DNA of 24,633 nt from the IMG/VR virus record IMGVR_UViG_3300030060_004082, positions 1-24,633 of that record. One strand, 5' to 3'. The notes under the pieces were generated by a model. It was not told where the DNA came from, ran no database searches, and worked only from the letters and a program-made list of their open reading frames with translations. Below are positions 12,146 through 24,031 of the stretch, in pieces. The position numbers and the translations under genes were made by a program. The DNA comes from a virus. How positions within the stretch are numbered: the first letter of the stretch is position 1; each line of letters begins with the position of its first letter.

Positions 12146-13227
12146 GATGCCTGCAACCTCAATTTTTGTTTTGCGTATTCTTTGAACGGAACACCTAGTT
12201 TCTTGGCTAATGCCTGTTCGCTAGGGGTCAGTTCAACCCTACGATCATTTTGACTGCGTCCATTTCCTGTTGTGCGCGTACCGGAAACTACGGTTTGGAC
12301 GGGTTTCCCGCTGTTTCCTACGTTGTTTTCCGCTTGGAACCTGTTTGGAAGTTCTTCGCGTAATCTATTGTCAAGCTGAGAATAGTATTCATCAGACTCT
12401 AAGTCAATTCCTGACTCAGCTAATTCCTGATGTATTGCCATAGCTGTATTGGTCATAATCCGATCAACACCAAACCATTCGTTCTTTTCGGCCCACCCTT
12501 GAGCTTTTGGAGACGGCTGCGCATATTGCGCATCTGGTTGCTCCTGGGGCTGCGTCTGTGGTTGTTGAGCCGGAGGATTTATCGGGGCATTTGCCTGATT
12601 CTGATTATAGGCTGCTAAATCCTGCTCATATTGCGCCAGATCACGCTTATACTGTTCAAGCGCATTTCTGTCAGCTTCAGCCCGTGCTAACTGCTGCTGG
12701 GCCTCAACCATTAAATTAGAATCACCAGCTTCATAAGCTTTCGTTAATGCTATTTTTGCAGAATCAACTTCTGCATCTACCCTACCCTGGAATTCACTCG
12801 TATAATTCTTAGATAAAGCAAGATTTTCTTTAGCTGTTGTTTCTTCCCTTAACTGAATCTGGGAAGAAAGTTTTTTGTTTTCTTCCTGCAATTGTTTTGC
12901 ATATTGAAGGGCTTGTATTTCTCGACGTTGAAAATCTTTAGCCTGCTTAATAGCCTGGTTAACACGGTTCTGGGCTTTCTTTGCTTCCTGTTCTACTTCA
13001 GAAAGTTCCCCATCATCCTGCCCTAACGAACCATCTTCAAAGTTTTCTTTTACTTCATCTTCAGTAATAGGGGCAACTTCACCAACATCCTCATCAGTAA
13101 GATCGATAAAAGTTGACTCATCTTGCGGGTCTTCAATATCAGAACGCTTATGTTCAGGAACAGCCGCGCTTTTAATATTGTCGTCGTTTAAATTTTCTAG
13201 TGCTTCACTTAAAGTTTCTTCTGCCAT
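12142..13227 (-). CDS. Capsid scaffolding protein
   Basis: A 361-residue protein with the usual scaffold build: an acidic N-terminal third (residues 1-80), a long coiled-coil segment (about 80-205, AKKAQNRVNQAIKQAKDF onward), a Pro/Gln-rich hinge (210-240) and a basic C-terminal helical region ending LTPSEQALAKKLGVPFKEYA, the capsid-binding type of terminus. It would form the internal template for capsid assembly and leave or be degraded afterward. It has a GAGGTG ribosome-binding site. Placement between portal-side genes and the capsid gene supports the call. Confidence 0.85.
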   Translation of the reverse strand: MAEETLSEALENLNDDNIKSAAVPEHKRSDIEDPQDESTFIDLTDEDVGEVAPITEDEVKENFEDGSLGQDDGELSEVEQEAKKAQNRVNQAIKQAKDFQRREIQALQYAKQLQEENKKLSSQIQLREETTAKENLALSKNYTSEFQGRVDAEVDSAKIALTKAYEAGDSNLMVEAQQQLARAEADRNALEQYKRDLAQYEQDLAAYNQNQANAPINPPAQQPQTQPQEQPDAQYAQPSPKAQGWAEKNEWFGVDRIMTNTAMAIHQELAESGIDLESDEYYSQLDNRLREELPNRFQAENNVGNSGKPVQTVVSGTRTTGNGRSQNDRRVELTPSEQALAKKLGVPFKEYAKQKLRLQAS

Positions 13228-13874: not shown

Positions 13875-15536
13875 TTACGGCATCATATAAACCCCAGACG
13901 GATTATATGGCATCTGAGGCATTTGTGGATAAGAGCCACCGAACTGATTGCCCTTATTAGCAGAAAACAAATTAGCTAAATAGGATTGAGCGGCGTTTGC
14001 ATTTGTTTGTGCGCCACTTGCTGCACCTGCAGTTGTTCCAGTGCCTGTTGTTCCTGTTTGAGTCTCTGCTCCTGCTTCTCCTGCCGGAGTTGAAGGTCTT
14101 GTCGGAATAGCAGAAAAACCACCGTAGTAGGACAAAGGTGCCATGGTTTGGCTGGGTCCATAGCCATATCCATAACCACCAAAGATTGATGGACTCATGG
14201 GATTAGCCATGCCTGCATATGGAAGGAACGGAGTTTGACTCATGTAGGGCTGACCAAACTGTGGCATTTGCGGCATCATTAAATTTTGATATTGCTGATA
14301 CGGATTATAACCCTGCTGGGTGGAAAACGGATTTGTTGTAGTTTGTTGAGATTGTTGCTGTGCTGCCTGAAGTTGCTGAATCAGTGCTAAAAGCTCCGCA
14401 ATGCCGGTATTTTCTGTACCTGTAGTAGTTACACCAGGAGTTGTTTCTGTTTCAGGAGTTGTTGTAGTAGTTGTAGTAGTTGTAGTTTCTTCTGTATTTT
14501 GAGCAGATAAATTCGCAAGTCTTTCCGCTTCAGCTGCATCAAGTTCTTCTTGACTCATTGCCGTATTGGTGATTGCCTGCTCTTGTTCAGCTGCGCTAAC
14601 AACACCATCGCCATTTAGATCGTAGCCTAATGAAAGCGCATTTGTCTGGTTATCTTCGGCCATTTGGCGAGTCATGCCTCTCGCCATTAACTCTTGAATT
14701 CTAGCTTCTACAGCAGGGTTAAAATTATCTTCTGCTCGAGCTTGCATTTCTCCCGGAACATATGCACCAATTGCTTTAAATTTTTCAACTTCTGAAACAG
14801 CACCATCATTATTAATATCCCAACCATAACTAATAGCATTTCTCTGGTTATCTTCAGCCATTTTCCGAGTCATGCCTCTCGCCATTAATTCCTGAATACG
14901 AGCTTCATAAGGGCCAAGTGCAAAAATTTGTGCTGTACTGCTTAGTCCGGTGTCTTCGTTAGTCGTTCTCCCAGTTGTAATTCCTTCTGTCCGTTCAGTG
15001 GCAGTAACGACTCCATCACCATCAAAATCATAACCAGCGTTAAGCGCACCTTGATGATCTGATATTGCTTCTTCACGAGTCCTAAAAGGTTTTCCAGGTA
15101 TGCCGGTAGGCTGGGCCATCAACTCGGCAATCCTCGCCTCAAAAGCAGAATCTCCACCTTCCTGCATACCAACGGGTCTTTTAGGTGCTATTGGCACTTC
15201 TTTCGGAGCACCCGGAGTTCTTCCCATTTTTGGGATTCTTGTTGGTTTGGGCTGCGGAATTGGTGCAGAAGTGCCATAGGTTACGCCCCGCCGCGCATGA
15301 TAAATCCTCAATGCCTGGTCGCGGGTAATGCCTGGAAAATTTGACATTATTTTTTGTACTGCTCTTTCTATTTCCATAGCAGGATTTCTTCTAGGACCGC
15401 CTAACAAAGGCGGTCGAGGATTACTGAGACCCGCAATTCTGTCTGTCATGCCTCCTCCCTGCATACCTCTCGCTGCAGCTGCTGCCGCCATCCCTTCTTT
15501 GGTATAGGGATAATGTTTATTTCCGACTTGTGGCAT
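13875..15536 (-). CDS. EF-hand repeat protein in the portal-scaffold interval
   Basis: A 553-residue mosaic protein. The N-terminus (MPQVGNKHYPYTKEGMAAAA) is of a type seen in marine phages. Residues 52-90 are helical (FPGITRDQALRIYHARRG). Residues 131-325 hold three modules, each pairing a helix such as EARIQELMARGMTRKMAEDN with a 12-residue loop: DFDGDGVVTATE (170-181), DINNDGAVSEVE (240-251) and DLNGDGVVSAAE (306-317). All three keep Asp/Asn at positions 1, 3 and 5 and Glu at 12, the canonical EF-hand calcium pattern. A poly-Thr tract follows (about 356-367), then a Gln/Pro/Tyr/Met-rich low-complexity C-terminus. The start overlaps the upstream stop (TAATG). It could be an internal or portal-associated virion protein that uses calcium in seawater; function is unknown. 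Confidence 0.8.
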   Translation of the reverse strand: MPQVGNKHYPYTKEGMAAAAAARGMQGGGMTDRIAGLSNPRPPLLGGPRRNPAMEIERAVQKIMSNFPGITRDQALRIYHARRGVTYGTSAPIPQPKPTRIPKMGRTPGAPKEVPIAPKRPVGMQEGGDSAFEARIAELMAQPTGIPGKPFRTREEAISDHQGALNAGYDFDGDGVVTATERTEGITTGRTTNEDTGLSSTAQIFALGPYEARIQELMARGMTRKMAEDNQRNAISYGWDINNDGAVSEVEKFKAIGAYVPGEMQARAEDNFNPAVEARIQELMARGMTRQMAEDNQTNALSLGYDLNGDGVVSAAEQEQAITNTAMSQEELDAAEAERLANLSAQNTEETTTTTTTTTTPETETTPGVTTTGTENTGIAELLALIQQLQAAQQQSQQTTTNPFSTQQGYNPYQQYQNLMMPQMPQFGQPYMSQTPFLPYAGMANPMSPSIFGGYGYGYGPSQTMAPLSYYGGFSAIPTRPSTPAGEAGAETQTGTTGTGTTAGAASGAQTNANAAQSYLANLFSANKGNQFGGSYPQMPQMPYNPSGVYMMP

Positions 15537-19529: not shown

Positions 19530-20993
19530 TTAATAATACGCAATGCGTTTTCGGTAAACTTCTTCTTCAACCTCGTCAGAATGAAGCGTAATAAAGTTTC
19601 CCTGTCTGAATCTTAGTATAGCCTGTGTCATAGAGTCTACATAATCATCGTACTCACCGAAAGGAAAAGATGCACACTCTTCAATGACCTCTTCGGCAAA
19701 TAAATAATCAGGAGCCCAGACAAGCCCCGACTCGAAAACAGGGCTGGCTGAATGCACACGGGTCATCTTATCGTTACCACGGCTTGGCCGATAGTTAACA
19801 ACAGGAATTCCCATCATCCGAAGTTCCTGTGTCAGGGGTGTACCACTCGCCTGGGACTCAATCAGGACCATATCAGGGTTATATTCCCGATATGCGTCAT
19901 GGGCTACCGCTTTTAACTCAGGGAAGTCCCACCGGCCACGTTCCGCATTTAGGAGAATAATCGCATCTGCCATACCGTCACCGGGATTAAACACGCCCCA
20001 GGTGGTAATGGCACTGTAATCCGCCGTTTCCTTCTTGGAAAAGGCCGTATCGTAGGACTGGATCACATAATGACAGGCCGGTGGCTCATCCTTGGTCCAG
20101 ATATTCCACCATTCCCGCTTGATAATCGCCCCTTCTTCCGAAGTCGGGTTCTGCTGGTACTGGGCATTCCACTTCATGACAGGAATCGAAGCCTTGACTG
20201 ACTCCAATTCCTCCTTCTTCCAGAACTCCGGCCAGAGAACATTGCCGGAATCCTCGAAAATTGCGGGTAATTCGATGACTTCCCAGTTATCTGCGTGGTC
20301 TTCAACCTGACGATTGAGCAATCTGCCGGTCAGATCAATGGTAGACCACCGTGTCATGACGATGACAATGGCCCCACCAGGCTGTAAACGCTGCCTTGGA
20401 CCGGAGGTATACCACTCATAAGCCCCCTCCATGGCACTCAGGGACAATGCGTCCTGTTCCGAGTGAGGATCATCAATAATCAGTAAATCAGCACCCCGCC
20501 CCGTGATGGCTCCACCAACACCCGCTGCGAAATACTCCCCTCCCTGTGATGTTTCCCACCTTCCGGCAGATTTTGAGTCAGCCGCCAAAGAAACATTATC
20601 AAACATTCTTTTATATTCCTGGGTATCCATCAGGTTCCTGACCTTACGGCCAAACCGGATAGACAGGTCTGCAGTGTGCGTGGTCTGCATGATCTTCATG
20701 TCAGGCTTTAAGCCCATCATCCACGAAGGGAAGTAGACAGACGCGAATTCGGACTTGGTATGACGCGGAGGCATGTTGACAATCAGGCGTTTACATTTTC
20801 CCTGTGCCACTTCTGTGAGCTTATCCGCGATTAAACGGTGATGCTCCCCTTCAATGAACCCATCCCAGATATATCGGACGTAGTCCATAAAGGAGTCCCG
20901 GCAAGCATCCTTTGTTTCCAGCGTAGCCAGACGATCCTTCAGCATCAGGATTTCTTTCATGTCCGACTCGGGAATATGGGCAAGGCTGCTCAA
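19530..20993 (-). CDS. terL: Terminase large subunit
   Basis: A 487-residue two-domain packaging motor. The ATPase part shows a Walker-A-like NMPPRHTKSEF (about 73-83), a Walker B LLIIDDP (170-176) and the TRWS coupling motif (214-217). The C-terminal RNase H-like nuclease has Asp315 in QSYDTAF, Glu379 in VLIESQASG and Asp453 in DDYVDS, the usual acidic triad. It cleaves and pumps DNA through the portal. The frame opens only after a TAA about 44 nt upstream; the TTG at 20993 (weak GGAA leader) or the ATG at 20960 are the possible starts. It is the first late gene. No small terminase subunit is found upstream or elsewhere in the window. Confidence 0.95.
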   Translation of the reverse strand: MSSLAHIPESDMKEILMLKDRLATLETKDACRDSFMDYVRYIWDGFIEGEHHRLIADKLTEVAQGKCKRLIVNMPPRHTKSEFASVYFPSWMMGLKPDMKIMQTTHTADLSIRFGRKVRNLMDTQEYKRMFDNVSLAADSKSAGRWETSQGGEYFAAGVGGAITGRGADLLIIDDPHSEQDALSLSAMEGAYEWYTSGPRQRLQPGGAIVIVMTRWSTIDLTGRLLNRQVEDHADNWEVIELPAIFEDSGNVLWPEFWKKEELESVKASIPVMKWNAQYQQNPTSEEGAIIKREWWNIWTKDEPPACHYVIQSYDTAFSKKETADYSAITTWGVFNPGDGMADAIILLNAERGRWDFPELKAVAHDAYREYNPDMVLIESQASGTPLTQELRMMGIPVVNYRPSRGNDKMTRVHSASPVFESGLVWAPDYLFAEEVIEECASFPFGEYDDYVDSMTQAILRFRQGNFITLHSDEVEEEVYRKRIAYY

Positions 20994-21670: not shown

Positions 21671-21744
21671 AGGGGCGTGGTGCAATGGTAGCATGTTGGA
21701 TTCCAAATCCAGTGATGGGGGTTCAAATCCCTCCGCCCCTGCCA
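21671..21744 (+). tRNA. tRNA-Trp (anticodon CCA)
   Basis: The cloverleaf can be folded by eye. The acceptor stem AGGGGCG pairs perfectly with CGCCCCT, the D arm is GTGC-AATGGTA-GCAT, and the anticodon arm TTGGA-TTCCAAA-TCCAG carries CCA at 21703-21705. The variable loop is TGAT and the T arm is GGGGG-TTCAAAT-CCCTC. A G discriminator is followed by an encoded CCA. The acceptor and discriminator match bacterial tRNA-Trp. It decodes UGG. Phage tRNAs often supplement host pools or replace host tRNAs cleaved in defence; which applies here is unknown. It is embedded between two small genes and may be cotranscribed with them. Confidence 0.95.
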
Positions 21745-22143: not shown

Positions 22144-22166
22144 TTTACTCCATAGCTAAACCAAAC

Positions 22167-22197
22167 TGGCGCGCCGATCTTAGGATCGGCTGCGCCA
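22167..22197 (+). repeat. Structured hairpin element, copy 1 (single-T bulge)
   Basis: A 13-bp hairpin 23 nt after the preceding stop. TGGCGCGCCGATC pairs with GATCGGC(T)GCGCCA, with one bulged T at 22191 and a TTAG loop. It shares exact architecture with copy 2 at 22512-22540, and base pair C75-G88 is replaced there by T-A, a compensatory change. It is not followed by a U-tract, so simple termination is not the best reading. Confidence 0.75.
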
Positions 22198-22498: not shown

Positions 22499-22511
22499 CA
22501 CTGACCGACCT

Positions 22512-22540
22512 GGCGCGCTGATCCTGGGATCAGCTGCGCC
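22512..22540 (+). repeat. Structured hairpin element, copy 2
   Basis: GGCGCGCTGATC pairs with GATCAGC(T)GCGCC with a CTGG loop and a single bulged T at 22535, the same form as copy 1. It sits 13 nt after the preceding stop. An outer arm pair CTGACC (22501-22506) and GGTCAG (22555-22560) could extend the structure. The change of one inner pair (C-G to T-A) keeps pairing. Confidence 0.75.
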
Positions 22541-22582: not shown

Positions 22583-22645
22583 CCAATATATATAGAGCGT
22601 AAGGCCGCAAGCGCCGCCAATATATATAGCGAGTAAGGCCGCAAG
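22583..22645 (+). repeat. Tandem pair of 29-nt AT/GC repeats
   Basis: Two 29-nt units (22583-22611 and 22617-22645), 34 nt apart, each read CCAATATATATA + 6 nt + TAAGGCCGCAAG-type core. They share the AAGGCCGCAAG core with five more copies in the downstream non-coding stretch. Units differ only in the short junction (GAGCGT versus GCGAGT). An alternating AT tract next to a GC-rich core is unusual in coding DNA, and it lies outside genes. Confidence 0.8.
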
Positions 22646-22677
22646 TATTCATCTATATATATGCAATGCTATCGCGT

Positions 22678-22706
22678 TTCACTTTGCCCCAGGATATTGA
22701 TATAAT
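22678..22706 (+). promoter_or_regulatory. Sigma70-like promoter before the GP88-like gene
   Basis: TATAAT at 22701-22706 is preceded by TGA (extended -10, TGATATAAT) and, 17 bp upstream, by TTCACT at 22678-22683. The match to consensus is good. It lies about 30 nt before the ATG at 22736. Confidence 0.6.
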
Positions 22707-22735
22707 AATCACTCGACAAAAAAGGAAATGACACG

Positions 22736-23350
22736 ATGAAAGTATCGGAAGCAAGACAGTTAGTCGGCGGTTTATCTAACGCCTCAAAGATGCCAAGTAA
22801 ATCTTATGGCCTACCAGCGCAAGCTTGCAAGGTAGGCGGCAAACTTAGAAAGGTTAAAGGTTCAACGTGTGAGAAGTGTTACGCCTATGACCGAGGCATG
22901 TATGTCATGCCGGTAGTTAAGGCCGCACAAGCTAGACGATTAGAAACAATTAAAAGCAAAGACTGGACCGCGAACATGGCGCGCGCCATTAACAAAGCCA
23001 AATTATTTAGATGGCATGATAGCGGCGACATTCAAAGCGCCGAACATTTCCAGAAAATAATAGACGTGGCAAAGTTAACTCCCGATTGTAAACATTGGCT
23101 ACCAACACGCGAGGCTAAGATAGTCGCAAGCCACAAAGAAAAACTACCGGATAATCTAGTAGTTCGAGTATCCGCGCCAATGGTAGATGGTCGCGCACCT
23201 AAACGATTTGCGAACACGTCAACCGTTCACGCTAAAACCATACCCGTTAACTCTCACATATGCCCAGCACCTAAACAGGATAACGAATGCAAAGATTGCC
23301 GAGCATGTTGGGATAAATCAGTTCAAAACGTTAGCTATCACGCACACTAA
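22736..23350 (+). CDS. GP88-like cysteine-rich phage protein
   Basis: A 204-residue protein that resembles what I recall of the phage GP88 family (PF17338-type): a LPAQACKVGG start, then GSTCEKCYAYDRGMY, FRWHDSGDIQS, HWLPTREAKIV, NLVVRVSAP, and the C-terminal CKDCRACWDKSVQNVSYHAH. Eight cysteines (31, 45, 48, 118, 176, 185, 188, 191) and paired CxxC motifs suggest bound metal, perhaps zinc or an iron-sulfur cluster. The biochemical function of the family is unknown to me. It has its own extended -10 promoter and the usual AAAAAGGAAATG leader. It is followed after 17 nt by another small gene. Confidence 0.8.
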   Translation: MKVSEARQLVGGLSNASKMPSKSYGLPAQACKVGGKLRKVKGSTCEKCYAYDRGMYVMPVVKAAQARRLETIKSKDWTANMARAINKAKLFRWHDSGDIQSAEHFQKIIDVAKLTPDCKHWLPTREAKIVASHKEKLPDNLVVRVSAPMVDGRAPKRFANTSTVHAKTIPVNSHICPAPKQDNECKDCRACWDKSVQNVSYHAH

Positions 23351-23367
23351 AGAAAGGAATAAGCATC

Positions 23368-23559
23368 ATGATTACTGTAATACCAGCATATGGACGCGAC
23401 TACAAAAACGCTAAATCCGCAAAGCAAGATTGGAAAGATGGCAAAGATTTTATTATTGCTGACTTGTCTAATCCATACGATGGCAAGCCATGCTCAATTC
23501 GAGATGGTTTAAAAGTTGTCATCCGCTACAACAAACTTCAAAAGATAACGATCGCATGA
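23368..23559 (+). CDS. Small conserved hypothetical protein
   Basis: A 63-residue protein starting MITVIPAYGRDYKNAKSAKQ with later KDFIIADLSN and VVIRYNKLQKITI. Similar short proteins with the PAYGRDY and IRY-K motifs occur in phages and plasmids without a known function. It starts 17 nt after the GP88-like stop with an AAAGGAATA leader and is probably cotranscribed with it. Its last codons and stop form part of a terminator hairpin. It is likely a small beta/alpha protein; no catalytic residues are visible. Confidence 0.75.
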   Translation: MITVIPAYGRDYKNAKSAKQDWKDGKDFIIADLSNPYDGKPCSIRDGLKVVIRYNKLQKITIA

Positions 23560-23575
23560 CGCGGTCGTTTTTTTT
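23547..23575 (+). terminator. Rho-independent terminator
   Basis: A 9-bp stem (AACGATCGC with GCGGTCGTT, one G-T pair), the loop ATGAC, then eight T residues. The TGA stop of the upstream gene is in the loop and its last codons are in the left arm. It ends the GP88-like/small protein operon. Confidence 0.9.
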
Positions 23576-23685
23576 CGCCAGCGCGCCGCCGATCCTAGAT
23601 GAGGCCGGATCAAAGCTCATTCCGGAAACACCTGGTCAACACCTGGTCGGGCATGAGCTCTCACCCGCACCGGCGACCCCCGCAC

Positions 23686-23908
23686 CAGAATATAAGGGCG
23701 CAAGGCCGCAAGTGCGTGAGCTCTCACCCCCGCCCATATATATAACGCGCAAGGCCGCAAGCATGGGGCCTGCCTCAGGCCCTGCCGCGCATGGGGCCTG
23801 CACCGCAATCCGCAGTTGCCGATGAAGGCCGCAAGCAAACCAGTTCAAACCAGTTCAGATATATATACGCACAAGGCCGCAAGCATATAGGTCGAGCAAG
23901 GCCGCAAG
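23686..23908 (+). repeat. Five further AAGGCCGCAAG core repeats
   Basis: Cores at 23702-23712, 23751-23761, 23825-23835, 23873-23883 and 23898-23908, all on the same strand. Four have AT-alternating or AT-rich tracts just upstream (for example CATATATATAACGCGC before 23751). With 22601 and 22635 there are seven copies in all. The irregular spacing (49, 74, 48, 25) rules out a CRISPR array. Confidence 0.8.
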
Positions 23909-24002
23909 CAGAAAGAAAAAAGAACCCCTTCCCTTCCTCCCCCGTGGGGGCGGGGCAGACTCCAACCCCGCAAACCCCCTGAAAACCCCCGAAAACTAGG
24001 GT

Positions 24003-24031
24003 TTTAAACAGAGATAATTATGGGCTATAAT
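24003..24031 (+). promoter_or_regulatory. Sigma70-like promoter before the right-edge gene
   Basis: TTTAAA (24003-24008) and a perfect TATAAT (24026-24031) with a 17-bp spacer, about 33 nt before the ATG at 24064. It is the cleanest promoter in the window by match and spacing. Confidence 0.65.

Follow-up and report, generated by a model that had tools for sequence, protein, structure and literature searches.

Polar direct-repeat clusters around a GP88-family gene of marine phages: a candidate gene-control element

What is the role of a short sequence that recurs in the intergenic DNA of a phage in a single orientation, mostly beside alternating AT tracts? This question is raised by AAGGCCGCAAG, an 11-nt core found in the first 24.6 kb (the window) of a 57,894-base phage record from IMG/VR (hereafter G000). 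A sequence-only reading of the window had likened its copies either to iterons of a replication or partition site, or to sites bound by a regulator of the phage. The analysis described below suggests that the repeat clusters are probably a gene-control element that has not been described previously. Three new facts are the most useful: the repeats are linked to a GP88-type transcription unit, there is a second array, and in distant phages the repeats are fused to a −35 hexamer.

Repeat clusters and their gene context

The window contains exactly seven copies of the core, all on the plus strand (Table 1). Scanning of the complete record revealed the same seven forward copies and no reverse ones, while 200 first-order Markov genomes yielded a mean of 0.05 and a maximum of one. 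All copies are confined to two intergenic clusters, A (22601–22645, two cores) and B (23702–23908, five cores), and lie outside conserved genes; a near match with two mismatches, AAGGCCGCACA, is located within the GP88 gene (position 22919). The initial description of a core present seven times, always in one orientation and only between genes, was therefore borne out, and no copies are dispersed through coding sequence. The same is true of the nearly perfect 29-nt tandem formed by the first two units, which are identical at 27 of 29 positions and separated by 5 nt. Core spacing in this phage is irregular.

The statement that the cores "mostly" adjoin AT tracts was a fair one. The 9-nt sequence ATATATATA precedes four of the seven cores by 5–6 nt, a shorter or weaker AT stretch precedes two, and core 5 has none. 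In the whole record, (TA)n tracts reach 9 nt or more at only five places, all inside clusters A and B, and the fifth of these (at 22654) is not followed by a core. We also considered the TATATA tracts as the −10 elements of stand-alone sigma-70 promoters, which was rejected since the sequence preceding the units carries no −35 signal. A second 11-mer, CCTTCTTGAGT, is likewise present seven times in the record (G000:C1), where it is probably a repeat encoding an EGTQ run in a large tail-like protein near 48.5 kb.

The terL gene occupies positions 19530–20993; the structural genes extend leftward up to terL, and the early block runs rightward from approximately 21.2 kb. Clusters A and B flank a GP88-family gene and point in its reading direction, with the end of cluster A lying about 90 nt from the gene. 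The G-rich and then C-rich element that follows cluster B is kept in about 25 relatives. Several other features of the record were noted: (i) a palindromic GGCGCGC-GATC-GCGCC repeat, whose two copies (22160–22196 and 22504–22540, 84% alike) follow two small early genes, (ii) a tRNA-Trp (CCA) gene in the early region (21671–21744), a tRNA being the only match obtained with Rfam, and (iii) a match to phrog_887 (queuine tRNA-ribosyltransferase; G000:C1:30543–31298), possibly a nucleic-acid modification gene.

Table 1. Features of the GP88 region of G000 (positions are those of the window)
Feature	Position	Strand	Remarks
Array A unit 1	22583–22611	+	AT tract 22586–22594, 6-nt spacer, core 22601–22611
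Array A unit 2	22617–22645	+	AT tract 22620–22628, 6-nt spacer, core 22635–22645
Orphan TATATATAT tract	22654–22662	+	No core
Sigma-70-like promoter of GP88 unit, TTCACT-17-TATAAT	22678–22706	+	Both array A cores upstream
GP88-family gene (PF17338), 204 aa	22736–23350	+	Profile match E 2e-31
Small ORF, 63 aa	23368–23559	+	Second gene of GP88 unit
Intrinsic-terminator-like hairpin ending GP88 unit	23547–23575	+	Upstream of array B
Array B core 3	23702–23712	+	Weak AT stretch AATATAA before core
Array B core 4 with AT tract	23736–23761	+	AT tract 23736–23744, core 23751–23761
Array B core 5	23825–23835	+	Without AT tract
Array B core 6 with AT tract	23859–23883	+	AT tract 23859–23867, core 23873–23883
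Array B core 7	23898–23908	+	CATATAGG before core
Conserved G-rich/C-rich element after array B	23940–23979	+	Possible stem GCGGGG 23950–23955 / CCCCGC 23966–23971
Sigma-70-like promoter of next early operon, TTTAAA-17-TATAAT	24003–24031	+	Downstream of array B

GP88 gave no significant match in the PDB when searched with Foldseek. In a second structure comparison (VIA) the best rows for its AlphaFold model were mostly radical-SAM folds (QueE, TYW1, viperin) with Z at most 6.1, a likeness too weak for a radical-SAM function to be assigned. Conserved cysteines are found at both ends of proteins of this family.

Occurrence in close and distant phages

When 2.9 million viral contigs were scanned with the pattern ATATATA-N2-12-core, 64 stretches were identified. 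Seven low-GC contigs, with matches inside ORFs, were set aside as chance. Most of the remaining ones were relatives of G000 (terL 73–99% identical), so that the motif search proposed at the outset did find the cores in related phages. The layout recurring in them consists of terL, cluster A, the GP88-type gene, cluster B and the next early operon. Since this first scan had selected contigs by the motif itself, the test was repeated on contigs chosen by terL: the 57 relatives obtained contained 103 cores in the expected direction, none in the opposite one and none on the structural side, counts that are not independent, as the contigs partly overlap. When only contigs with a minimum terL identity of 76% and no less than 2.5 kb of flanking sequence were considered (19 in all), the core was present in 16, a variant core in two (L205, AAGTCCGCA[A/T]G; L223, AGGTCGCAAG) and neither in one. 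The variant of L205 is homogeneous within its genome (nine sites in the same layout), i.e. the core varies in concert. A host derived from the genome collection was rejected: single-copy matches look like chance, and the sole multi-copy match belongs to a phage contig, with match positions as in L052, that binning had placed in a Dehalococcoidia MAG.

The slot behind cluster A is variable. Where tblastn found no GP88 a gene of about 240 aa is present there, and in the two cases tested (L021 and L205) HMM analysis assigned it to the GP88 family, as a divergent branch (E 1e-30 and 6e-34). In some loci (e.g. L018) a phrog_2554 protein with only a hint of GP88 similarity is encoded behind cluster B instead. 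Given that divergent GP88 branches adjoin the same core, and that a few loci carry arrays but lack GP88, the GP88 protein is itself unlikely to read the arrays. In loci chosen by GP88 protein similarity, arrays were present where GP88 opens its own unit, and none were found where it is an internal gene of an operon (L287–L289, L299, L311, L313, L318).

The TerL protein of G000 is 59–61% identical to those of HTVC027P, HTVC023P and 023Pt_psg01, and arrays of the CAAGCNN type occupy the same two places in HTVC027P, 023Pt_psg01 and many contigs. In HTVC027P, 16 of the 17 CAAGC..CAAGC doublets of the genome are located on one strand around GP88 (gp33), co-oriented with it, and 10 of the 13 looser C[AG]AGC doublets of 023Pt_psg01 are arranged likewise. 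HTVC023P (L195) carries unrelated direct repeats in two intergenic clusters (12469–12567 and 14918–15089) of its terS–terL region.

Scanning with three heptads (CAAGCNN) yielded at least 120 contigs, of which 99 among the matches listed have at least five doublets. As these loci were chosen for their heptads, the presence of arrays reflects selection, whereas their orientation, their GP88 linkage and their fusion to a −35 hexamer do not. Among the matches listed, GP88 was detected within 1.2 kb of 75 of the 99 arrays, co-oriented in all 75 and with arrays on both sides in 58. The remaining 24 comprise 16 cut off by a contig edge no more than 250 nt away from the array, on the side expected to hold GP88, three high-GC chance matches and five without a match to the GP88 model. 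For 46 GP88 loci among these matches, forward and reverse CAAGC counts were 275 and 42 upstream and 548 and 7 downstream, and the dominant period was 7 nt; in the G000 group it is mainly 8 nt. In 30 of these 46 loci there is no gap between the upstream array and the −35 hexamer (CAAGCTTGACA): the sequence CAAGCTTGAC, joining the last unit to TTGACA, was found in 30 of 46 upstream and in 0 of 46 downstream arrays. This fusion is kept, again among the matches listed, before a gene replacing GP88 (L365, L396), and in HTVC027P both gp33 and gp34 are preceded by an array abutting TTGACA.

Promoters beside the arrays and rival explanations

The promoter of the GP88 unit in G000 was equalled in score by none of 60 shuffles, and for the promoter-like hexamers located between array A and GP88 in most relatives 0–4 of 60 shuffles scored as well. 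Wherever a promoter was called in this interval, the cores lie upstream of its −35. A simple consensus scan of the window alone found promoters no commoner than in shuffles (2 vs 2.6), and the case for the GP88-unit promoter is therefore drawn from its own score and its recurrence in relatives. Within the G000 group the last core is found at varying distances from the −35, which is loose for a classic activator. In several relatives array A follows a strong terminator. Array B of HTVC027P-like phages is placed at the 3' end of the unit, facing a convergent gene, and no co-directional promoter was found after it. The convergent ORF facing the downstream array in these phages (minus strand, 8700–9140 in L193, and alike in L396, L423 and L432) may resemble a VRR-NUC nuclease.

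Because the small terminase is a candidate reader of the repeats, a packaging start (pac or cosB-like) is the main rival to transcriptional control, even if an unlikely one. At such sites the small terminase binds polar direct repeats in the terminase region, and the arrays described here are indeed situated between terL and terS; the conserved G-rich element after array B would then lie near the cut, and a directional process would explain the fixed orientation of the repeats. Moreover, terS (34%) was, besides GP88 (49%), the only non-structural match between G000 and HTVC027P at E 1e-4, and in the heptad phages among the matches listed it is mostly encoded 0.5–1.7 kb downstream of array B, and it shares the strand of the array in 81 of 82 loci. 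This association could, however, arise from conserved gene order alone, and the strand of terS is not constant: in the G000 group it lies on the opposite strand and further away, yet the GP88 link still holds. The presence of two clusters flanking GP88 also differs from pac and cosB sites, and the fusion of array A to the −35 hexamer would be left unexplained.

An origin of replication, with the repeats as iterons, the TATATA tracts as the melting region and the hairpin as the priming site, seems improbable. In common with iteron origins of plasmids and phages, the direct repeats stand next to AT-rich tracts; they form two separated clusters, all long AT tracts of the record are concentrated at them, and a conserved hairpin-forming element adjoins array B. 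However, no initiator common to the array-bearing phages was found. The Prim-Pol/AAA protein of G000 was detected in neither HTVC027P nor 023Pt_psg01, whose replication set differs and includes DNA polymerase A, which makes the iteron reading less likely. In addition, the units are spaced irregularly or by 7 nt rather than by one helical turn, and a fusion to a promoter is not needed by iterons. The GC-skew check suggested for an origin was uninformative, since cumulative GC/AT skew merely follows gene strand.

We give a similarly small and slightly lower probability to the possibility that the arrays are recombination-prone or selfish repeats with little direct function, surrounding an exchangeable gene slot. 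Different GP88 branches or other small genes do occur between otherwise alike arrays, the number of units is highly variable, and units can be duplicated in tandem; against this, strict orientation is maintained across a large divergence, the repeats are fused to the −35, and arrays are missing where GP88 lacks its own promoter. Finally, an action in RNA, as an attenuator, antiterminator or protein-binding leader, would fit an orientation fixed relative to transcription, but is very improbable, because array A is placed ahead of the probable start of transcription and, in several relatives, behind a strong terminator, and should thus be little transcribed.

A possible operator array of the GP88 unit

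The two interpretations put forward from the sequence alone have fared differently. Sites of a regulator are partly supported and fit best, given that the clusters lie upstream of promoter-like sequences and that in distant relatives the upstream array is fused to the −35, while the reading as iterons or partition sites has become weaker. We consider the chances about even that the repeats constitute a polar operator array, composed of predicted protein-binding sites, which controls the GP88 transcription unit and the operon following it. RNA-seq analysis of HTVC027P placed gp33 (GP88) and gp34 in a temporal class of their own, with the highest expression at 6–9 h (PMC12753301). Together with the position of the array at the promoter, this favours a regulatory operator array, the evidence coming from a single phage with a heptad array and not from G000.

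The working unit of such an operator would be CGCAAG(C), doubled in G000 as CAAG-GC-CGCAAG with an AT tract upstream, and represented by the CAAGCNN heptad in distant phages. The direct, polar sites of array A (two units) and array B (five) would bind a DNA-binding protein, and the target of control would be a short early-middle transcription unit, normally opening with the GP88-family gene, plus the next operon. As array A is placed directly upstream of the −35, a protein bound there would act on RNA polymerase at the unit promoter, either as an activator or as a repressor. Array B, situated at the opposite end of the unit and pointing the same way, could provide a second site for looping; alternatively, it might titrate the protein as genome copies rise, or act as a polar roadblock. 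Of the genes scanned, which are only part of the total, none was recognised as a regulator; within this subset neither a SARP protein nor a winged-helix regulator was seen, and the reader may be host-encoded.

Two known systems resemble the operator array proposed here. In Cluster A mycobacteriophages (L5, TipsytheTRex), asymmetric short sites are located in promoter regions and short intergenic spaces and are oriented with transcription (PMC9283540). This orientation is shared by G000 (7 of 7 sites) and its relatives (103 vs 0). Those phages, however, contain more than twenty 13-bp sites dispersed genome-wide and recognised by a known monomeric repressor (PMC9283540), whereas G000 has two dense clusters of a different sequence around one unit, within 1.3 kb of 57.9 kb. 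The operator of the SARP/OmpR-type regulator PimR consists of two or three copies of the heptamer CGGCAAG, in 7-bp repeats with 3–4 bp spacers (PMC5930380). Both have short direct repeats within a promoter region, located before the −35 or overlapping it, and the heptamer is similar by eye (CCGCAAG here); cooperative binding is a feature of PimR. In contrast, the phage arrays have a 7–8 nt period without a spacer and up to many copies, and the 10–11 bp period of SARP/OmpR sites (one helical turn) was not found, the period being 7 nt in heptad arrays and mainly 8 nt in the G000 group. Since each system has one defining feature that is lacking here (genome-wide dispersion and helical-turn period, respectively), the arrays were assigned to neither. 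A search of openly accessible journal papers for the motif, the heptad and GP88 returned no description of the arrays.

More tentatively, the arrays may belong to a class of polar cis-regulatory array that is widespread among phages of the sea and has not been described before. Members of this class would be built of CGCAAG/CAAGC direct tandems, with one array fused to a single promoter at its −35 and the other, of larger size, placed at the far end of the unit. Such arrays would be read by a fast-evolving or host-encoded factor, might serve as a copy-number timer by titration, and would enclose an exchangeable slot usually filled by GP88, perhaps a radical-SAM-like enzyme.

Pelagiphages of the HTVC023P/HTVC027P type have been described as widespread in the sea. 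A conserved element tied to a gene of a separate expression class provides a concrete target for studies of how these phages, which lack their own RNA polymerase, time their genes. HTVC027P and its host HTCC1062 are a cultivated pair in which the array can be studied. The sequence of the array can also be used to recognise marine phages that bear GP88.
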